Made by a program: the position numbers and the translations under genes. Below are positions 7,972 to 23,420 of a stretch of DNA of 23,899 nucleotides, in pieces. The notes beneath the pieces were generated by a model. It ran no database searches, was not told the DNA's origin, and was given only the letters and a program-made list of their open reading frames with translations. Every line of letters starts with the position of its first letter. The stretch's first letter is position 1. This DNA is from a virus: IMG/VR virus record IMGVR_UViG_3300010430_000446, positions 1 through 23,899 of that record. One strand, given 5' to 3'.

Positions 7972-9033
7972 ATGGCATTTACACAGTCTGAGAACAGTCT
8001 TACGAAGGAGAATATCCTCAAGAAGCTTGATACCTTTCAATTATTTCAAGCCTATTGTAGAAATTTCAGAGCGTTAGACAGAATGTTTAAGAGTGAGTTT
8101 CGTAAGGATAGCAGACCGTCATGCCATGTCGTAGTGTGGGAAGGAGATTTACTTTACAAGGATTTTGGTGAAAGAGGATATAGAGTTTTTGATTATATAG
8201 CAAGGAAGTTTAATACAGATTTTCAAAACGTATTGCGTATCATTAATCGAGATTTCGATCTTGGTCTTGGTTCAGTCTCAGATGCTTCCGTCAAAGTAAA
8301 CGCTTTGAGGGAAATACCTGACAAGGCGAACTTTGATGTGAAGCAGTTTGAGCAAAGACCAACTATCATCGACATACAACCTCGAAGATGGACTGATCTG
8401 GATCGTGAGTATTGGGCGCAATATGAAATACCACCGTTACTTCTAAAATATCATAGGATTTATTCGATAGCGAATTATAGGATCGACAGCAAGTTTCAGG
8501 ATAATGTATCCTACAGAGTCAATCCATATCAACTCGCCTATTCGTTTGATTATTATTGGCATAAAGGAGTATATCGGAGAAAGCTGTACTTCCCACAAAC
8601 AAAGGGACGCTTCCGCTTTATATCAAATGTAAACAATACCATTGTACAAGGATGGACCTTGCTTCCTAAGAACAAGCAGGATATTCTTTTTGTAACCAAG
8701 TCATATAAGGATATTTTAACCTTTAATCTACTTGGTTATTGGGCAATAGCTCCCAATAGTGAGCACTCGTTTATACCAGAAGATGTAATGGAGAAGCTGA
8801 AACAAAGATTCAGCAACATATATGTCTGGTTCGATAACGATGAAGGTGGATTAACAGGTGGAGAAGGTTTCGCTAAGAGATTTGATCTGAAGTTTACCCA
8901 CAACCCTATTGGAGAACCCAAAGACCCTTCTGATTTTGTAAAGGAATACAGCTCAAAAGAGTTTGATAAACTTACAACACAATTCCTAAGAGATGCAGGA
9001 CATAAATATTATAGTCCCGAATTTCGAGTATAG
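7972..9033 (+). CDS. DnaG-like primase with TOPRIM domain, 353 aa
   Basis: The N-terminal part resembles the CHC2 primase DNA-binding domain (FRKDSRPSCHVVVW then LLYKDFGERG...FDYIARKF), but only C29, C51 and H52 remain, so a full zinc site is doubtful. The C-terminal part has TOPRIM features: strand FVTKSYKDIL at 240-249, where the usual Glu-Gly is replaced by Thr-Lys-Ser, and WFD288-N-D290-EGG, the DxD metal motif. The last part (GEPKDPSDFVKEY) resembles the KDPxD end of TOPRIM primases. It should synthesise RNA primers for the family B polymerase. The gene sits 10 nt after the SSB-like gene and overlaps the resolvase gene by 41 nt. It is compact compared with DnaG (about 580 aa), lacking a helicase-binding domain. 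Confidence 0.82.
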   Translation: MAFTQSENSLTKENILKKLDTFQLFQAYCRNFRALDRMFKSEFRKDSRPSCHVVVWEGDLLYKDFGERGYRVFDYIARKFNTDFQNVLRIINRDFDLGLGSVSDASVKVNALREIPDKANFDVKQFEQRPTIIDIQPRRWTDLDREYWAQYEIPPLLLKYHRIYSIANYRIDSKFQDNVSYRVNPYQLAYSFDYYWHKGVYRRKLYFPQTKGRFRFISNVNNTIVQGWTLLPKNKQDILFVTKSYKDILTFNLLGYWAIAPNSEHSFIPEDVMEKLKQRFSNIYVWFDNDEGGLTGGEGFAKRFDLKFTHNPIGEPKDPSDFVKEYSSKEFDKLTTQFLRDAGHKYYSPEFRV

Positions 9034-9472
9034 GTACATCGTAGCAAAGAAGTCGAGAAAATCAGGGAGAGTACGATACTGGACCGTCAATGGTCAAGGA
9101 TTGTACAACGCTACATTACATTACCGACTAAGAGGAAAATTGACTGAGTATTATCATAAATATCTTTCAAAGTATATCAAGCAACAGATTTCCAGAGAAC
9201 AGATTATAGAGCTGAATAACCAAATTTTTCCCGGCTCCTCCCACAAGTTATCCGTTTCATTAGACATTTACGATACACGTAGAGGCAAAATGCCTGACGT
9301 AAGTAATCTATGGTTATGGACCAAATGGTTTGAGGATGCTTTACAGGAGTCAAAAATTATTCCGGATGACAATCCGGACTACGTTGCCGAAAGCGGACGA
9401 ACTCGTTATCATTTCGTTGATAATCAAGAGAATCGTAAACTCGTTTTCACCTTGAAATTGATAAAGATTTAA
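8993..9472 (+). CDS. RusA-family Holliday junction resolvase, 159 aa
   Basis: The catalytic signature is clear in the second half: PD102-VSN105...K111...D115-AL...II-P-D125-D126. It matches the D-x-x/D-N...K...D-x-L...D-D pattern of RusA endonucleases, whose acidic residues bind metal and cut four-way junctions symmetrically. RusA proteins are typically about 120 aa; the extra 40 residues lie in the N-terminal and central helical region (KLTEYYHKYLSKYIKQQ). The ATG at 8993 lies 41 nt inside the primase gene, so translation is coupled. The likely role is resolving branched recombination or replication intermediates before packaging. Confidence 0.85.
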   Translation: MQDINIIVPNFEYRYIVAKKSRKSGRVRYWTVNGQGLYNATLHYRLRGKLTEYYHKYLSKYIKQQISREQIIELNNQIFPGSSHKLSVSLDIYDTRRGKMPDVSNLWLWTKWFEDALQESKIIPDDNPDYVAESGRTRYHFVDNQENRKLVFTLKLIKI

Positions 9473-9491: not shown

Positions 9492-10232
9492 ATGAGAAAA
9501 GTCGTATTAAAGATGACTACGCAGAAAGATTTGATTGAACATCAGTCTGAAGCAAGAACATTTGGTGAATTGAAGAAGGAACTGAAGCAGGTCAAGTGGT
9601 CTGGAATGAGGGTAGTAGAGAGAGCATCTAAAGCAACCCTTCAGATGGATGATGCAATACTCCCACAAGGAGAATTTCTCCTGTTTCTTGTCCCTGAGAA
9701 GGTCAAGAGTGGTAGAAAAACTTCCGGTGGAACCGAAGAGTTGAGTAAACCTATCGAAGAGTGTTCCTACAATGAGTGTAGGAGTCACATGAGCTGGTTG
9801 AACAGGAACAAGGATGCAAATCTGAATATGTCCGGTGGTACTGCTGATCTTCAGGCTCAACTGAAGAAGTACTACAAAAAGGAGGGTGGTCAGACATCTG
9901 CTACCAAGAAAGTAGCTCCTAAAGCAGCTAAGAAGCCTGAGAAGAAAACTCCTTCTGAGAAGAATGTTAAGAAGGCAAAGAAAGCGAAGAAGAAAGGTCT
10001 CTTTGGAAAGAAAGAGAAAGCTGCTCCTGTACCAACCGATCCTATCGAGATCATTGAAGCATCTCGTGACCAGATCAACAAGGCTGTTGATCAAATCGTA
10101 CTGGATATGATTGAGAATGGTGGTACTGTACCTGCTGTCCTTCAGTTCACTGCGGACGATCTTGACAAAGAAATCAAGAAAGTTCAAAGTGCTCTGAGAA
10201 CCAGTAGAAGTCAGGCAGTTTATATTCCATAA
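9492..10232 (+). CDS. Protein with N-terminal ubiquitin-like (beta-grasp) domain, Gly-Gly motifs and Lys-rich linker, 246 aa
   Basis: Residues 1-70 follow the order expected of a beta-grasp fold: strand KVVLKM, helix TFGELKKELKQV, strand MRVVERASKATL, then the DDAILP turn and strand EFLLFLVP. That pattern resembles ubiquitin-like and PRTRC-type proteins. A Gly-Gly pair follows at 79-80 (SGRKTSGG), with two more at 115-116 (NMSGG) and 132-133 (KKEGG). Residues 134-180 form a Lys/Ala/Pro-rich linker, and 182-246 a helical domain. In ubiquitin the mature end is Gly75-Gly76, so a pro-form cleaved after G80 is plausible. E2-like, JAMM and E1 genes follow on the same strand, which strongly supports this reading. 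M8 is an alternative start but would remove strand 1. The fold call is pattern-based. Confidence 0.7.
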   Translation: MRKVVLKMTTQKDLIEHQSEARTFGELKKELKQVKWSGMRVVERASKATLQMDDAILPQGEFLLFLVPEKVKSGRKTSGGTEELSKPIEECSYNECRSHMSWLNRNKDANLNMSGGTADLQAQLKKYYKKEGGQTSATKKVAPKAAKKPEKKTPSEKNVKKAKKAKKKGLFGKKEKAAPVPTDPIEIIEASRDQINKAVDQIVLDMIENGGTVPAVLQFTADDLDKEIKKVQSALRTSRSQAVYIP

Positions 10233-10253
10233 AATAGTTTGTGGTTCCCATGT

Positions 10254-10294
10254 GAGGAGGTGTGAGGGAGTAATCCTTTGCACCTCTTCCTTTT
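10254..10294 (+). terminator. Terminator-like hairpin between Ubl and E2-like genes
   Basis: GAGGAGGTG (10254-10262) pairs with CACCTCTTC (10281-10289) with one G-U pair. The 18-nt loop contains a possible inner AGG/CCT stem. TTTT follows at 10291-10294. It may be a weak or partial terminator that lowers expression of the downstream conjugation genes relative to the Ubl gene. The pairing is seen; the effect on transcription is inferred. Confidence 0.5.
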
Positions 10295-10307
10295 AAAACT
10301 GATAAAT

Positions 10308-12356
10308 ATGAATGAAGAAATGGCAAATCCGTTTACACATATTGATCCTGATAATCCACCACCAGAACCAACTCAAGAATATCCGAGTCATATGGTTGAG
10401 GAAACAGATGAAGAAGAAATAACTGATCATCAAGCTGTTGCTGATGTACTTAGTAATGGAGAAACTTATGAAGGTCTTACTTTAGATAGTCTGAGAGAAA
10501 CTGTAAATGAGGTTTTGGAAGAAGAGGAAGCTCAACCTCGTGCGATAAGGATAAATACGGCAGATATTCCAGTAGGAATGACCGCAGAAGAGTATATAAG
10601 GCATTATCAACAGACCGGAACTCTTACCACGAACGCTACCTCTACAACCTATACAGGTACTAACATTTCTACTGATGCAACTGATGCAGCAGCACCTACT
10701 CGTCATCCTTTGGATGATCTGTTTGTAAATAAAGAGGAAAAGAAGGAACCGATTGAAGAAATACTTCCTACTCCTGAACAGATTGCACGTATCAAAGCAG
10801 AGCGTAAAGAATATCACGCTGATCAGCTTAGATTCAAACGTGAGATATGTGTCAGGGACATGGTTATTACTAAAGATGATCTGATTATTACATTCCAAAA
10901 CGGAAGTCACACTTTCTATCATATTGATATAGAGGGGAGTCATCAGATGCAAAAAACAGCCAATCCTCATACTTTACGGAGAAGAAGAGGTGTCAATAAG
11001 AGCAAAAGTGTGTGTAATTCTCTCATCTTCGACAAGAATATGAATCGTTTAACTGTCTATAAAGATGGATTCGATAAGAAGAATAAGAAGAGAGATCGTA
11101 GAGATGGAACCAGAATTTACCCATCTCAAGTATATCTTGGTTCAGAAGGTGGTATTGGAGATGAACCATTCTTTGTTGTGATCAATAAAAATGCTTTTAT
11201 CAACTCCAAAGGTAGATTGTGGCAAATCAGATATAGAAGTCATGTTTCTTACCACCGTATCAAACAAGCTAAGAAAATGTACATGGGACAATTCGATGAA
11301 ATCGAACGATTCATGTCATTTATGAAGTTCAATATTGAGATGGTACATCCTGCTGAAGATTATGACATTATGTATAGTTTCGGAGGTCAAGAGCGTCATA
11401 CGGAGTCTCATTTTGATTTGCTTGTAAAATTCAACGATGTGACCATTTCTAATTCTATTGAAATGGATCATCATATCGGTGATATAATAATTAAGAGTAC
11501 AGGAAATCATTGGCTCAGTCATGGTGCAGATGAGATTCGTTCTAATGTAATGGGTTCTCTGAGTGGAACAAGATTAACGTTTACTCCCGGAGATGCAGGT
11601 AGAAGCTACCAACATTCTCACTTGACTACCAGTATGTGCAACTTTGGAGGTTTCTGTACAGGAAGTGGAAATTATAACAATGGTGATGGTTATCTGACTG
11701 AGTATTCAATTCAAGAGCATATTTTTAGATTGGATACCTATGTCAGATGGGAGTCACTTGAAGGTGGTCCTCATTACAGAATGGAGAATATCAACATTCA
11801 TGGTGGTGTACAACCTATTAGGAAACATATTATAGGAACGGACAGGGAAGTTAGAAATGTTTATGTGGAGAGGTTAATCTATGAGATTAATCAGACTCCG
11901 GAACAGTTCGGTACATTCGCACCATGCTTTACGATTATCAACCAGAAAGGGAATCTCAAGTTTGTAGCAGATTATCAAATGTTCTTTAGAAAGTTCATGG
12001 AAATTATTCCAAGCGACAAGATTAAAGAGATCACTACACAACTTAGAGAAACTGTTTATACCTATAATTCTCTGGAAGGAACTTTCCATGTAATTAACGA
12101 TATGGATTCAGTTAATCCAGCAAAGATTATCGAGAAAGCTGAACTTAAAATGATAAACTTTAATCCTATTTATATGAGTGGGAAGTATTATCGTCCTCGT
12201 TTAATTACTCGTGATGTAGGGAATCTGTTAGAAGGATTGGTATTCTCTCCTGAACCAAATATCATGAAGGAGATTGCACAACTTATTATGTATCATTTAA
12301 CAAATAAACTTGAAAAATATGGGAACACCAGCGCAGACGAAAGAGAAGAAAGCTGA
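10308..12356 (+). CDS. Large protein with candidate E2-like (UBC-like) motif, 682 aa
   Basis: ATG 10308 follows TTTTAAAACTGATAAAT. The frame is open further upstream only from a TTG. Residues 1-170 are acidic, Thr-rich and low-complexity (ETDEEE, EVLEEEEAQ), probably disordered. The rest is a mixed alpha/beta domain. The key stretch has H436-S-H438, then C444 and C450 in GGFCTGSG, followed by VRWESLEGGP. A His motif about 10-14 residues before a Cys in a Gly-rich setting is how UBC/E2-like proteins, including divergent prokaryotic ones, present their catalytic Cys. Between a Ubl gene and JAMM and E1 genes this makes it the best E2 candidate. The alternative is an unknown enzyme or scaffold. 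It overlaps the JAMM gene by 38 nt. Confidence 0.6.
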   Translation: MNEEMANPFTHIDPDNPPPEPTQEYPSHMVEETDEEEITDHQAVADVLSNGETYEGLTLDSLRETVNEVLEEEEAQPRAIRINTADIPVGMTAEEYIRHYQQTGTLTTNATSTTYTGTNISTDATDAAAPTRHPLDDLFVNKEEKKEPIEEILPTPEQIARIKAERKEYHADQLRFKREICVRDMVITKDDLIITFQNGSHTFYHIDIEGSHQMQKTANPHTLRRRRGVNKSKSVCNSLIFDKNMNRLTVYKDGFDKKNKKRDRRDGTRIYPSQVYLGSEGGIGDEPFFVVINKNAFINSKGRLWQIRYRSHVSYHRIKQAKKMYMGQFDEIERFMSFMKFNIEMVHPAEDYDIMYSFGGQERHTESHFDLLVKFNDVTISNSIEMDHHIGDIIIKSTGNHWLSHGADEIRSNVMGSLSGTRLTFTPGDAGRSYQHSHLTTSMCNFGGFCTGSGNYNNGDGYLTEYSIQEHIFRLDTYVRWESLEGGPHYRMENINIHGGVQPIRKHIIGTDREVRNVYVERLIYEINQTPEQFGTFAPCFTIINQKGNLKFVADYQMFFRKFMEIIPSDKIKEITTQLRETVYTYNSLEGTFHVINDMDSVNPAKIIEKAELKMINFNPIYMSGKYYRPRLITRDVGNLLEGLVFSPEPNIMKEIAQLIMYHLTNKLEKYGNTSADEREES

Positions 12357-13506
12357 ATATCCGATCTATACTATGGAAGATAAAGGTAAATTGATTTTAC
12401 CACCTGAAATCATATCGCAGATCACATATCTTCATTCCCATTGTGGAAGTAAAGAATGGTCAGGTCTTCTTCTATATGATGTAATTAAAGGCAATCCTTC
12501 CAAGCCTAAAGATTTTGAATTGGAAGCAAAACATATTTTCCTGATGGATATTGGAACAGCAGGGGCAACTGACTATGAAACCGATGGTGATATTGTTGAT
12601 TTGTATGATCAAATCCCGGAGGCTTTAGAGCAGAAGCTCGGACATATTCATACTCATCATAGTGGATCAGCTTATTTTTCCGGAGTCGATACAGGAGAGC
12701 TTCAGGACAACGTGGACAAGTATAACTACTATCTGTCCTTTGTAGTGAATTTCAACGGAAATTACGCTGCTAAAGTAGCTTTCCTGAGTGATATGCACAC
12801 TACATCTAAGATGAATTATCTGAATGATGCAGGTGTGATCAAGCATTTCAAACAATCGAAAGTTGAGAAGCACATGGTTATCATTGATATGAGAATTATG
12901 TATGCTGAGCTTGGTGGATTCTTTTCTGATCGTCTTGATGAGATTGTCAAGAAGAATGATGCGAAATCAAAGCACAGTGCTGCTGGTTATCAATACTCTC
13001 ATTTCCATAATCAGAATATGAATGAACTTCCACGTCATGAACTACATCACAGGCAAAGTCAGAGAGCTATTGGTTCAAAAGTCATCCCTGACAAGATGAC
13101 ATCATGGGAGATCGAAAAGCTGACAAAGAACATCTTGATGTTTGATACTGAACTGAAAACAGAGAGTAATGTATATGCTATTCTGCATCAGATTGTCAAA
13201 CAGGAAGATGCTGAGATGGACTTATTTTATGACTATCTCTTGAATCATATCGACAATGTGCTTGATGCTTACTTCGACGATGCACTTCTTGCTGATGATG
13301 AACGTGTCATTGTGATCAAGGAAGTTTTGATGTCAATTAAGAAGTATGAAGGACTTCCTCTTCTATCTGAACTGATTACTAATCTTGAGGAGACATTTGA
13401 ACATTTTATGCTTGGTTATGAAGTGATCAGAGAACCTGAAGAGAATCAGTCTGAGAATAGTATTGCTAATCAACTTGCAAGAGCAGAAAGGGAACTCCAT
13501 GATTGA
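12319..13506 (+). CDS. JAMM/MPN-family metallopeptidase (JAB domain), 395 aa
   Basis: The zinc isopeptidase signature is intact: E46 in KEWSG, then H111-T-H113, seven residues, S121-G-V-D124. This is the E...HxH(x7)SxxD JAMM motif of deubiquitinases such as Rpn11 and of prokaryotic JAB proteins. The MPN domain occupies about residues 20-170. A 220-residue extension follows, with a His-rich stretch (HFHNQ, HELHHRQ) around 230-250 and a helical, acidic end. It should cleave the peptide or isopeptide bond after a Ubl Gly-Gly, either maturing the Ubl or removing it from targets. Start ATG 12319 is preferred over an upstream TTG. It overlaps the E2-like gene by 38 nt and the E1 gene by 8 nt. Confidence 0.9.
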   Translation: MGTPAQTKEKKAEYPIYTMEDKGKLILPPEIISQITYLHSHCGSKEWSGLLLYDVIKGNPSKPKDFELEAKHIFLMDIGTAGATDYETDGDIVDLYDQIPEALEQKLGHIHTHHSGSAYFSGVDTGELQDNVDKYNYYLSFVVNFNGNYAAKVAFLSDMHTTSKMNYLNDAGVIKHFKQSKVEKHMVIIDMRIMYAELGGFFSDRLDEIVKKNDAKSKHSAAGYQYSHFHNQNMNELPRHELHHRQSQRAIGSKVIPDKMTSWEIEKLTKNILMFDTELKTESNVYAILHQIVKQEDAEMDLFYDYLLNHIDNVLDAYFDDALLADDERVIVIKEVLMSIKKYEGLPLLSELITNLEETFEHFMLGYEVIREPEENQSENSIANQLARAERELHD

Positions 13507-14182
13507 TGTAAAGAAGTCAAGATTCCGTGATGCTTCATGGTTTGAGAAAGTCGATAAGTTCGTTATTCCTATCATTATCGGAGGTGCAGGAGGGATTGGT
13601 AGTTGGCTGACATTATTTCTGTCAAGGATGCTACCACCTACCTCATACATTATCCTATACGATTTCGACACAGTAGAAGAAGTCAATATGGCTGGACAAC
13701 TGTTTAGAACTCAGGATATTGGTAAGCTGAAAGTCACTGCTATCAAAGAGATAGTAAAAGACTTCAGTGGATATGAGAGGATTACAGTACAACCTGATCG
13801 GTATGATCCGGAAGCTCTCAGAAGTCCCGTTATGTTCTCATGTTTTGATAATATGGTAGCACGAAAGGATATGTTTGAGAACTGGTTACAAGAAGCAGAA
13901 AAGTATCCGGATTCCATCTTTATTGATGGAAGACTGAACGCAGAACAATTTCAGGTATTTTATGTAACGCTTGAAAATGCTTTACAATACAAAAATAAAT
14001 ACCTGTTTAGTGATGATGAAGTCGATGATACGAACTGCTCTTATAAGCAGACTACGCACTTTGCAGCAGCGATTGCAGCGAAAATGGTACAAGGGTTTAC
14101 TGGATTCTTGGACCCCTCCTACGAGCTTCCATTCAAGTATGAGGAAATCGGACCGTTATTCTTTAATGAAACTGAACCATGA
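13499..14182 (+). CDS. E1/ThiF-family adenylating enzyme, 227 aa
   Basis: The nucleotide-binding core of E1-like enzymes is clear: GG29-AGGIG34 loop, strand YD55-F-D57, then VN63...R70...D73-I-GK76 (the NxxRQ...diGK pattern), and C115-FDN in the second half. These enzymes adenylate the C-terminal Gly of a Ubl using ATP. C180 in DTNC-SYKQTTH is a candidate catalytic Cys for a thioester. No ThiF/MoeB-type zinc CxxC pairs are seen. At 227 residues it is a minimal E1 without a fused C-terminal domain. ATG 13499 overlaps the JAMM stop, and the stop overlaps the next ATG (ATGA), so the three genes are translationally coupled. Confidence 0.88.
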   Translation: MIDVKKSRFRDASWFEKVDKFVIPIIIGGAGGIGSWLTLFLSRMLPPTSYIILYDFDTVEEVNMAGQLFRTQDIGKLKVTAIKEIVKDFSGYERITVQPDRYDPEALRSPVMFSCFDNMVARKDMFENWLQEAEKYPDSIFIDGRLNAEQFQVFYVTLENALQYKNKYLFSDDEVDDTNCSYKQTTHFAAAIAAKMVQGFTGFLDPSYELPFKYEEIGPLFFNETEP

Positions 14183-14955
14183 GAGGAGATCCGAAGAAAC
14201 CAAGAGATAAGATGCTGATCATAGACTACTATCAGAAACCATCTAATAGAGTAGTCTATCCTCTGAGATTTGTACCTCATGATGGATACTATCCATTGAT
14301 AGCAATTCCACCTACGTACAAAGGCTACCATAATCCGTATTTCCACGGCTCTCATAATCGTAGAGTTCGCTCTCGTTTGAGTCATTTGAATTTAAATTCA
14401 TCAGGAATACCATTTATTTACAAGAAAAATAGATCGTGGGGAGGAGATTTTATAAACTTCTTCTCAGGATTCTATAGTGTGATAGCTTCACCTGACGATT
14501 TTGAATATATGCCTTCATCTCTTTTCGGTGACGATAAAAAATATCGAATGAAAGGAGAGATTGATATATTCTGTCTCGCAGTAGTAAAAACCTCACAACT
14601 TCCTACAATTACCATACAATCAGAACGTTACTATAGGTATGCACACAAAAGGAAAGTTATGAGAACTGAGCTTGATTTAAATCATGTGACAATTTTCGTG
14701 AATAAAGAGAAATTGCGTAAATCTATATTTGCTAAGACACATTACACAGCAACCGTAAGAAGAAATATACTGGATCAGATAAAGAAGATAGATATTGGAT
14801 CAACGATAACTGTAAAAGATGTATCAGATGAATATCTAAAATCATTTATGGTAAGTCCTAAAACTGTCAGGACCAACTCATTAGTCGAAACTATGAGGAT
14901 CGACAATGAGATCAAAGACAGTGTATTTTCTAATCTTAACGCAGAATTAGTATGA
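14179..14955 (+). CDS. Unknown basic protein coupled to the E1 gene, 258 aa
   Basis: It starts at an ATGA overlap with the E1 gene and ends in an ATGA overlap with the exonuclease gene, so it is tightly coupled on both sides. The first 80 residues are rich in Tyr, Pro, His and Arg (RFVPHDGYYP, YKGYHNPYFHGSHNRRVRSR). The middle has beta strands (IDIFCLAVVKT). The end is helical with Lys/Arg and could fold as a DNA- or RNA-binding helix set (TVKDVSDEYLKSF, SPKTVRTN). There is only one Cys (residue 132). I recognise no family. Its coupling makes it a candidate target, cofactor or ligase-like partner of the Ubl cassette, or simply a DNA-metabolism protein. Confidence 0.75.
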   Translation: MRGDPKKPRDKMLIIDYYQKPSNRVVYPLRFVPHDGYYPLIAIPPTYKGYHNPYFHGSHNRRVRSRLSHLNLNSSGIPFIYKKNRSWGGDFINFFSGFYSVIASPDDFEYMPSSLFGDDKKYRMKGEIDIFCLAVVKTSQLPTITIQSERYYRYAHKRKVMRTELDLNHVTIFVNKEKLRKSIFAKTHYTATVRRNILDQIKKIDIGSTITVKDVSDEYLKSFMVSPKTVRTNSLVETMRIDNEIKDSVFSNLNAELV

Positions 14956-16031
14956 CAACAAGACTCTTGAACGTAGTTCCAGAATCAGCCTATCGTGGCT
15001 ATGATGGAGTAAACTATTCTTCATTGTCAAATCTTGCTAATAGTCCACAAGCATACAGAATCGCAGAAGCAGCAGAGGAATCTTCGGAAACCTCTGCTAT
15101 GCTTCTCGGTACTGTTGTGGATTTACTCCTTACCAACAAGGAGAGGTTTGATGATGAAGTCTATGTAATGACTGCTACTAAGCCAAGTAGCGAAATGATG
15201 CTCAAGTATTGTAATGTACTCGCACAAACAGGAGACACCAAAAGAGCACATAATGAATCAGGATACAAAATTAGTTTAGACGCATCGGTAAAGAAGTTTG
15301 ATAAGGAAGGCAGAGCATATTTTGACGCATTACTTAACGCAAAAGGAAAAAGTATTGTAGGTGCAGAAGAATTATTCGTAGCAAATCAAATTGTAGCACA
15401 ACTTACATCAAATCCTTTCACAAAGAGATACTTTATTGAAGAAGATGGCGTAGATTTATTGTTCCAAGTACCTATAGTTTGGAACATACACTTCAAATCG
15501 TTAATAACCGGAGAGAACGCTATTGCACCAGCAAAATCCATGCTGGATGTTATAAGAATCGACCACCATAATGAGTTGATTCAACCTGTCGATCTGAAGA
15601 CAGGAGGCGAAGGATTCATGAAGTCATTTTGGAGATACCATAGGTATCTACAGGCTTCCATGTATACCGATGCTGTAATGACTGCTCAATGGGACAGAGG
15701 TATGGACACCCGTAAGTATGAATTTGAACCCATGAGGTTCGTTTATGCTGACACAAATCTGTTCTACAATCCGGTTGTATATAAGATGACTCCAAAAGAT
15801 ATTCATGCAGGAAGATCAGGAATAGATTATATTGAACCAATGGGAGGAAGCGTATCAGGAGAAAAGGATACAATTTACTTTGGAACTCTCGGACAAACCA
15901 AACGCAAGGGATACGAAAGATTGACTGCCGAACTCGATTGGCACATTAAAAATGACAAGTGGGACTATGACTACGACACCTATCAAAAGAATGGTGAAAT
16001 AGAGATTAGTGCATTTGGAGTTAAATTCTAA
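14952..16031 (+). CDS. PD-(D/E)XK nuclease, RecE/Cas4-like phage exonuclease, 359 aa
   Basis: The core motifs of the PD-(D/E)XK superfamily appear in order: an N-terminal helix pattern YSSLSNLANSPQAYR and GTVVDLL near residues 53-59, then metal-binding D199 (SMLDVI), D214-L-K216 in QPVDLKTGG, and Q234xxxY238 (YLQASMYTD). The QxxxY helix is typical of RecB/RecE/AddB-type nucleases. These enzymes resect double-stranded DNA 5' to 3' and feed single strands to an annealing protein, which here could be the Sak4-like ATPase with the SSB. ATG 14952 overlaps the preceding stop by 4 nt. The long segment between the first motif and D199 is a family-typical insertion. Confidence 0.82.
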   Translation: MTTRLLNVVPESAYRGYDGVNYSSLSNLANSPQAYRIAEAAEESSETSAMLLGTVVDLLLTNKERFDDEVYVMTATKPSSEMMLKYCNVLAQTGDTKRAHNESGYKISLDASVKKFDKEGRAYFDALLNAKGKSIVGAEELFVANQIVAQLTSNPFTKRYFIEEDGVDLLFQVPIVWNIHFKSLITGENAIAPAKSMLDVIRIDHHNELIQPVDLKTGGEGFMKSFWRYHRYLQASMYTDAVMTAQWDRGMDTRKYEFEPMRFVYADTNLFYNPVVYKMTPKDIHAGRSGIDYIEPMGGSVSGEKDTIYFGTLGQTKRKGYERLTAELDWHIKNDKWDYDYDTYQKNGEIEISAFGVKF

Positions 16032-22041: not shown

Positions 22042-22254
22042 ATGGGTAATCCCGGATACACTGCTGAAACTCCTAAGAGGAAGATTTCAGAAGAATTTAT
22101 TGCGTGGTTAAACTCAGTTGAATTTGTCAATAACAATGAAGCAGTAGTTACAATGAGAGAAATCTTAGCTGAAGCTACACTTCGTCTAAACGATCTTCTT
22201 GTTGAAGAGGCTAAAGACATTGACAAAGCTGAAGCTGAAGGGTCTGCACCTTGA
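22042..22254 (+). CDS. Small unknown acidic helical protein, 70 aa
   Basis: ATG 22042 lies two bases after the VWA stop. After a short polar start (GNPGYTAETPKRKISEEF) the protein is predicted helical and acidic (TMREILAEATLRLNDLLVEE, then AKDIDKAEAEG). No motif, Cys or membrane segment is seen. Its spacing suggests co-translation with the VWA gene upstream and the purine enzyme downstream. Function unknown. Confidence 0.65.
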   Translation: MGNPGYTAETPKRKISEEFIAWLNSVEFVNNNEAVVTMREILAEATLRLNDLLVEEAKDIDKAEAEGSAP

Positions 22255-22265
22255 AGCCTCGTGAC

Positions 22266-23420
22266 ATGAGACACGCAGTAATCGGACTTGGATTTGGAGA
22301 TGAGGGGAAAGGTATGGTAACATCATACCTTTCTTCTTATTATAACAATCCAATGGTTGTCAGATACTCTGGTGGACATCAAGCAGGTCACACCGTAAAC
22401 CATAATGGAATCAAACATACGTTTGCGAATTTTGGAAGCGGAACTCTGCAAGGATGTCCTACTTACTGGTCGAAATACTGTACTGTTGAACCTATAGGTT
22501 TATTACGTGAACTTGCCCTATTAGTGGATGAAATGGGTGAATCAGTACATGAATTGAGAATTTATATTCAGGATGAATGTCCTGTAACTACACCTTTTGA
22601 CATATTTCATAATCAAAAGTTAGAAGTTGAGAAGATGTTCGGAACGTGTGGAGTTGGATTTGGTGATACTCTTGAAAGAGAGGAAGATCATTTTCATCTT
22701 CAATTCTCAGACCTGTTTAATCCTACTATATTGAAGATCAAACTTGAGATGATCCGTAAATATTATGGTCTCTTTCATGTCCTCAAAGACCTTGACATGA
22801 AGCCTTTCATGGAAGCTGTAGACATACTCAATAATAGAGCGATGTTTCCAGCAGATGTTATCGTTCGTGTAGACAGTACTGATATTCCAAGTCATCCAAA
22901 TACTATCTATGAAGGTAGTCAAGGTCTCTTGCTGGATCAGGATATTGGATTCTTTCCTCATGTAACACGTAGTAACGTGGGACGTAAGCGTTTAGATCAG
23001 TTTATCTATCATTACGATGAAGTATGGTACGTAACTCGTGCCTATCAGACTCGTCATGGTCATGGACCGATGACAAATGAGGAGCATCCTTTAATGTTGA
23101 TGAATAACAAAGGTGAATCAAATGTTGAGAATAAATATCAAGGTAAATTCCGAACAGCCATTCTTGATCTTGATCTTTTAAATTATGCTTTAGAACATGA
23201 TCAAAGGAGAGTTCGGAATGTCCAGAATAAGTATCTGGTTATCACTTGTTTAGATCAGATGATTCATTGGAGATTCACTCAGGAAGGTAATGTATTTCAG
23301 ATGGAAACTGAAGAAGAGTTTATCACAAATGTTGTAAGCGGTTTGAATTTTAAAGGAATGGTGTACCTTAGCCGATCCGATAAATCTGAACTTGAACAAT
23401 GGAAAGGAGGTGACAAATGA
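22266..23420 (+). CDS. Adenylosuccinate synthetase-like enzyme (PurA/PurZ superfamily), 384 aa
   Basis: PurA joins IMP and aspartate using GTP on the path to AMP; phage PurZ relatives act on dGMP on the path to 2-aminoadenine DNA. Family motifs present are G11-D12-EGKG16, Q39-A-G-H42-T (usually NAGHT), G126-T127-C-G, E217-GS-Q219-G, FFPHVTRSNVG, and TRAYQTRHGHGP. The catalytic Asp of GDEGKG is kept, as in PurA; canonical PurZ has Ser there. The aspartate-binding loop TTGR is replaced by YQGK (291-294), and the guanine-site TKLD reads TCLD330. It is shorter than E. coli PurA (432 aa). ATG 22266 is preferred over an upstream TTG. Substrate is undecided between IMP and a deoxyguanylate. Confidence 0.85.
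   Translation: MRHAVIGLGFGDEGKGMVTSYLSSYYNNPMVVRYSGGHQAGHTVNHNGIKHTFANFGSGTLQGCPTYWSKYCTVEPIGLLRELALLVDEMGESVHELRIYIQDECPVTTPFDIFHNQKLEVEKMFGTCGVGFGDTLEREEDHFHLQFSDLFNPTILKIKLEMIRKYYGLFHVLKDLDMKPFMEAVDILNNRAMFPADVIVRVDSTDIPSHPNTIYEGSQGLLLDQDIGFFPHVTRSNVGRKRLDQFIYHYDEVWYVTRAYQTRHGHGPMTNEEHPLMLMNNKGESNVENKYQGKFRTAILDLDLLNYALEHDQRRVRNVQNKYLVITCLDQMIHWRFTQEGNVFQMETEEEFITNVVSGLNFKGMVYLSRSDKSELEQWKGGDK
23403..23413 (+). promoter_or_regulatory. Full Shine-Dalgarno sequence before the HNH gene
   Basis: AAAGGAGGTGA lies 3 bases before the ATG at 23417 and is complementary to the 3' end of 16S rRNA over most of its length. It falls inside the last codons of the adenylosuccinate-synthetase-like gene. 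Almost no other start here has such a site, so either this gene has a different origin or the match is a by-product of coding Lys-Gly-Gly-Asp. Confidence 0.5.

Follow-up and report, generated by a model that had tools for sequence, protein, structure and literature searches.

The question raised by the viral record IMGVR_UViG_3300010430_000446, of which we analyzed positions 1 to 23,899 (the window, a 23.9-kb record), is whether the virus encodes its own system for attaching and removing a ubiquitin-like protein (Ubl). An earlier note on this DNA had claimed five open reading frames (ORFs) at positions 9492-14955, reading four of them as a Ubl, an E2-like protein, a JAMM peptidase and an E1 that together attach and remove a protein tag, and the fifth as a coupled unknown. 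All five ORFs were found. The first four lie on the plus strand and were assigned to a Ubl precursor of 246 amino acids (aa; 9492-10232), an E2-like protein of 682 aa (10308-12356), a JAMM/MPN (JAB) metallopeptidase of 395 aa (12319-13506), and a minimal E1/ThiF-type activating enzyme of 227 aa (13499-14182). The last three ORFs overlap one another, and the E1 gene starts at the ATG at 13499, with an 8-base overlap with the JAMM gene. We consider it likely, with a probability of about 85%, that the virus encodes in this cassette a four-component system for conjugating a ubiquitin-like protein. The proposed attach-and-remove set is supported by the predicted folds, the invariance of catalytic residues and a gene block that recurs in relatives.

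In the AlphaFold2 (AF2) model of the Ubl, residues 1-70 form a beta-beta-alpha-beta-beta arrangement with a predicted local distance difference test (pLDDT) score of 94-97, and the fold matches 1ubq at 2.8 A over 68 residues (Z 7.7). The matches in the PDB (Foldseek, probability 1.00; VIA) include ubiquitin, NEDD8, ISG15, FAT10, SUMO, DIX domains, TtuB, and the Bacteroides fragilis ubiquitin, and Mth1743 was also among the fold matches. Thus, the beta-grasp proposed for this gene was confirmed as a ubiquitin fold in both the model and the fold search. The domain is followed by the tail EKVKSG, which ends at G74, and by a Lys-rich, partly helical extension of 172 residues. In 129 distinct Ubls, K-x-K-S-G or K-x-K-A-G usually closes the domain, and a Gly occupies the G74 position in all 129, never as the C-terminal residue. 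Exactly one residue follows this Gly in 15 Ubls, two to five residues in six, 21-23 in three, and more than 30 in 105. Since the conserved Gly is never terminal, a processing protease would be required. Judged from the sequences, the pattern is that of a precursor needing a protease, and the JAMM gene is always present. Because the Gly is invariant and never the last residue, a JAMM cut after G74 is predicted, by which the extension in the window would be removed. The Gly-Gly motifs to which the earlier note had pointed (residues 79-80 and 115-116) lack conservation, and a functional role for them found no support; the conserved element is instead the K-x-K-S-G that ends at G74. As a Lys precedes the Ser-Gly, trypsin would leave Ser-Gly on a modified Lys, and standard Gly-Gly searches would therefore miss the mark.

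Two Ubl genes of relatives have additional features. In cr106_1 (locus L023:3740-4943), the Ubl gene is interrupted by an HNH endonuclease gene two residues past the conserved Gly, and an Rfam search found no intron at the split. In addition, one Ubl extension (one of 19 members) holds a ribosomal L7/L12 C-terminal domain (PF00542, E 5e-12); from the sequence we assign it to L024:4323-5249, and by extension length to phage cr126_1.

The E2-like protein carries the motifs Y434-x-H436-S-H438, C450-x-G452 and E482-S483-x-x-G486-x-P488, in this order, within a core of approximately residues 315-500, while its N-terminal extension is lineage-specific. Conservation among about 131 sequences is confined to the central block. 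H438, C450, G452, S483, G486, and P488 are invariant and Y434, H436, S437, and E482, also members of the block, are near-invariant, in an alignment with a mean column identity of 10%. The His/Cys motif described earlier for this protein (H436, H438, and C450) falls within the strongly conserved block. An AF2 model of 518 aa (pLDDT 89.7, predicted template modeling score 0.86) shows a long helix, a four-strand meander, the HSH motif, the Cys and a helix, which is the order of the UBC fold. When this model was compared with solved structures by VIA, the top 16 rows were all of the E2/UEV family, with Z-scores of 3.9-5.0, and included UBE2O, UbcH5c, a BRISC subunit with UEV domains, Rad6, UBC12, UBE2S, UBE2N, Ubc9, and BIRC6. 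The family profile matched none of the sequences of solved structures up to E 10, and Foldseek against viral models returned uncharacterized relatives only. The UBC fold that had been predicted for 10308-12356 is thus seen as E2 topology in the model and in its best structural matches, at modest Z. The fold match is specific to one superfamily but weak, and the modeled fold lends moderate support to an E2 assignment.

In the JAMM family, E46, H111, H113, S121, and D124 are invariant in 132/132 relatives, which include all four residues of the motif named beforehand (H111/H113/S121/D124). Pfam Prok-JAB was matched by all 20 of the members scanned (best E 1e-6), and the match of the window's own protein was weak (E 0.03). 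The best solved match was COP9 subunit 5 (CSN5; E 0.012), which is a NEDD8 isopeptidase. The E1 matched ThiF/PF00899 at 49 bits, above the curated cut-off, and its best solved match was UBA5 (E 9e-12), a genuine Ubl E1. It contains a GxGGIGS loop, D55, D57, N63, K78, D117, and the predicted catalytic C180. The glycine loop, D57, N63, K78, D117, and C180 are kept in relatives, and C180 is invariant in 129/129. Of the E1 core proposed in the earlier note, GAGGIG, D55, D57, and N63 stood, and the invariant Lys proved to be K78 rather than K76.

Relatives were collected by tblastn with the E1, followed by two viral scans with the E1 and JAMM profiles (80 loci each) and by iterated profile searches. 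The tblastn search found 78 phage records, nearly all of them Crassvirales (Steigviridae), Flavobacterium phages Fpv or relatives, and the isolated phages DAC15 (a Bacteroides phage, cassette genes 88-91) and Fpv were among the carriers; a nucleotide search in phage records gave no match. The regions compared from ten of these records share one gene order: primase, a first protein of about 200-310 aa (divided in one record), a second of 370-445 aa, "metalloprotease", "ThiF", an unknown and usually a uracil-DNA glycosylase. Public phage records label the cassette genes "thiamine biosynthesis", "metalloprotease" or hypothetical. The order Ubl-E2-JAMM-E1 was found in all 170 viral loci that have all four families, a number that includes some contigs taken more than once. 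Every close relative with fewer genes stops at a contig edge (L008, L011, L074, L087, L092, L128, L139, L140, L143, and L149), and the other incomplete loci are five distant E1 relatives and L014. E1 and JAMM genes lacking Ubl and E2-like neighbors, an arrangement named beforehand as speaking against the proposal, were found in no near relative. The cassette genes are under purifying selection, with ratios of nonsynonymous to synonymous substitution rates of 0.06-0.40 against up to three relatives. Recurring in every near relative and maintained by purifying selection, the four-gene order is beyond chance. A scan of 84,980 bacterial and archaeal genomes with the E1 patterns yielded just two relatives, each on a short contig of a metagenome-assembled genome; it used short conserved peptides, by which distant relatives would be missed. 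With only these two matches, the cassette appears to be virus-borne.

These computed features, namely the conserved gene block, the folds and the invariance of the catalytic residues and the Gly, are those from which we infer each chemical step, including the cut site, thioester transfer and conjugation. The Ubl would be made as a precursor, and the JAMM peptidase would cut past the invariant G74, removing one to five residues from stand-alone Ubls or the long extension in the window. The E1 would then adenylate the exposed Gly and take the Ubl onto C180, from which the E2-like protein would take it onto C450 and transfer it to Lys residues of its targets. The JAMM peptidase may also remove conjugated Ubl. 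The replication-gene neighborhood suggests, as a guess from context, that the targets are replication proteins of the phage machinery around the cassette. More tentatively still, the phage lineage, many crAss-like gut phages included, might encode a complete ubiquitin-like pathway as a constant element of its replication module and tag its own replication proteins, with the JAMM cut freeing the long extension as a second protein, in the way that eukaryotes release ribosomal proteins from fusions with ubiquitin; we regard this combination as possible but rather doubtful.

Several results weigh against a four-component conjugation system. The N-x-x-R-Q Arg, which stands before the conserved Gln and has a role in MoeB-type E1s, is replaced by Gly (G66) in the phage E1 family, so the activation geometry of the E1 may differ. 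For the E2-like model, a Foldseek search against the PDB gave no significant solved match. Its Z-scores are modest as well, the best being 5.0, and modest Z values can occur with multi-domain models. In addition, the long Ubl extensions are highly variable between relatives, and neither a target nor an E3 was identified for the Ubl cassette.

In comparison with known systems, the cassette would be a variant of the prokaryotic Ubl-E1-E2-JAB conjugation operons. It has their general traits, a beta-grasp Ubl with a Gly near the domain end, an E1/ThiF protein with a Cys, an E2-type His/Cys motif, and an adjacent JAMM motif. As the PRTRC cut-offs were missed and the E1 matches to Bil and CBASS models were weak, it was assigned to no named system. 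The PRTRC plasmid cassettes, which we take to be operon type 6d (Iyer et al., 2006; PMC1779556), resemble it in having a small Ubl with a conserved Gly (C), an E2 (B), a JAB protein (A), and a ThiF-type E1 in the same order. However, in PRTRC the Ubl and E2 genes are separated by an F gene, whereas the phage cassette has no such insertion and no ParB, E or F proteins, its Ubl has a predicted cleavable tail, and it lies beside replication genes. By hhalign, the phage E1 is homologous to PRTRC ThiF (99.3%, E 4e-20, 182 columns), with C180 over the conserved PRTRC Cys, and the JAMM proteins share local similarity (79%). Generic ThiF models score the phage E1 above the PRTRC model, so this homology is not specific. 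The phage Ubl and E2 profiles showed no detectable similarity to PRTRC C and B by hhalign; the best local pairing of the E2-like protein with PRTRC B superposes both Cys-x-Gly motifs but is not significant. PRTRC membership was rejected with 10.5 of 101.8 bits for PRTRC_A, 33 of 144.75 bits for ThiF, and no match to B, C, E or F. The comparison with PRTRC and Bil families proposed in the earlier note therefore yielded an E1 homologous to PRTRC ThiF but membership in neither family. The likeness extends to eukaryotic UFM1/NEDD8-type systems through the best solved matches, UBA5 and CSN5, and a Ubl fold like those of ubiquitin, NEDD8, and ISG15; the phage system differs in belonging to a prokaryotic virus, in its very low sequence identity, and in that no E3 was recognized.

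The Bil system (BilABCD) likewise encodes Ubl, E2, JAB and E1 as separate genes. BilA carries two Ub-like domains (PMC11354881), whereas the phage Ubl has one, and the E1 reached only 14.3 bits with BilD while the other phage proteins were unmatched, so Bil membership was rejected. The cyclic-oligonucleotide-based antiphage signaling system (CBASS) also combines E1/E2 chemistry with a JAB peptidase in Cap2/Cap3. This identity was rejected too, as Cap2 fuses E1 and E2 while the phage ORFs are separate, and no CD-NTase was recognized among the window genes scanned; the CBASS E1-E2 models matched the phage E1 only, and weakly. These resemblances bear on an alternative in which the conjugated Ubl tags or competes with host antiphage proteins, for example CBASS or Bil enzymes using the same chemistry. 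Counter-defense genes are usually patchy and swapped, whereas this cassette is fixed in a replication block, with a primase 5' of the Ubl gene in 164/168 loci. Although this is an argument rather than a test, we consider a counter-defense role unlikely, even with the weak similarity of the E1 to the CBASS E1-E2 and BilD models and the service of Ubl-type chemistry in bacterial antiphage defense (PMC10097602).

It is also conceivable that the Ubl is attached to virion or tail proteins while the particles assemble, as has been proposed for lambda TAPI and TAPK, which carry a Ub-like domain and a JAB domain, respectively (PMC1779556). The lambda pair resembles the cassette in combining phage Ub-like and JAB domains and in having a Gly followed by an extension. 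However, it lacks E1 and E2 and stands in a tail-assembly context, whereas no tail genes were recognized near the cassette, whose neighbors are replication genes, and this explanation appears improbable.

Least probable of all, and hardly to be expected, is a sulfur-carrier pathway. After activation by the E1 and trimming by the JAMM peptidase, the Ubl would donate a thiocarboxylate in the manner of ThiS, MoaD or TtuB for the thiolation of a nucleobase or cofactor, and the E2-like protein would be the sulfur acceptor enzyme. In favor of this, the E1 reaches a higher score with generic ThiF models (54.7 bits with PRK08644) than with the PRTRC model (33 bits), the Ubl fold matches include TtuB and Mth1743, and public records label the E1 gene "thiamine biosynthesis". 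Against it, the E1 score falls well short of the 159 bits set for the ThiF equivalog, by which a thiamine ThiF identity was rejected, the partner conserved alongside the E1 has the topology of an E2 and a Cys that never varies, and no rhodanese or cysteine desulfurase was recognized among the window genes scanned.

If the cassette is a conjugation system, as we favor, a full Ubl conjugation set would be owned by a virus in a lineage related to the abundant crAss-like phages of the human gut. Bacterial Ubl conjugation is known mainly from antiphage defense and plasmids. Ubiquitin-style systems are known from cells, and we found no earlier description of one as core kit of a virus; the openly accessible published papers on crAss-like phages that were searched gave no account of a ubiquitin-like/ThiF/JAB system. 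The phage cassette would add two divergent families, one of Ubl and one of E2 proteins, to the early history of ubiquitin signaling. Since cultured carriers grow on laboratory Bacteroides, the function is directly testable.

The genes around the cassette are related to replication. Upstream lie a DNA polymerase, helicases, a Sak4-like protein, the conserved DNA primase (7972-9033, plus strand; phrog_12622, E 4e-35), and a RusA-like Holliday junction resolvase (8993-9472, plus strand; phrog_1682, E 4e-8), and downstream an exonuclease VIII-like nuclease (14952-16031, plus strand; phrog_412, E 4e-24). The flanking resolvase and exonuclease that had been described for this locus were thus both borne out. 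The fifth gene, X (14179-14955, plus strand; 258 aa), fared differently. A gene is nearly always present 3' of E1 in relatives, but BLAST clusters place these genes in many unrelated families, and the X profile was matched by only 40/151 downstream ORFs. X had no Pfam match better than E 0.1, and a role as E3 or substrate was rejected, as a conserved Cys/His zinc pattern was not seen and the genes at this place do not form one conserved family. Given the differing families at this position, X is regarded as a neighbor and not as the fifth component that had been suggested.

Divergent loci were also observed. A 172-kb phage contig (L013:7206-10612) keeps a divergent version of the four genes in the order Ubl-E2-JAMM-E1, which favors the conjugation reading, and its E2-position protein has an HPxVNG...CLG motif, carrying HPYVNGAYNLCLG, the classical E2 motif. 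The same protein has C-terminal CxxC pairs and a weak RING-like match (E 0.04), and is possibly an E2-E3 fusion. A third divergent lineage on viral contigs of 89-148 kb (L015:7076-10615, L016:7038-10603, and L017:6910-10630) has a Ubl-like N-terminus and a protein of about 490 aa with PNPHLKI or PNPHLRI and then CLGG, followed by JAMM and E1 in the same order. In a Xanthomonas jumbo phage (L028:4214-8464), the E1 relative adjoins an 892-aa protein that matched nothing in Pfam better than E 0.05, and a search nearby found no JAMM motif. Apart from the cassette, the window codes at 22251-23420 for a protein of the adenylosuccinate synthetase family (PF00709, E 3e-42), which matches a PHROG of PurZ-like enzymes and might conceivably point to 2-aminoadenine DNA, but scores only 30 of 300 bits with the PurZ model.

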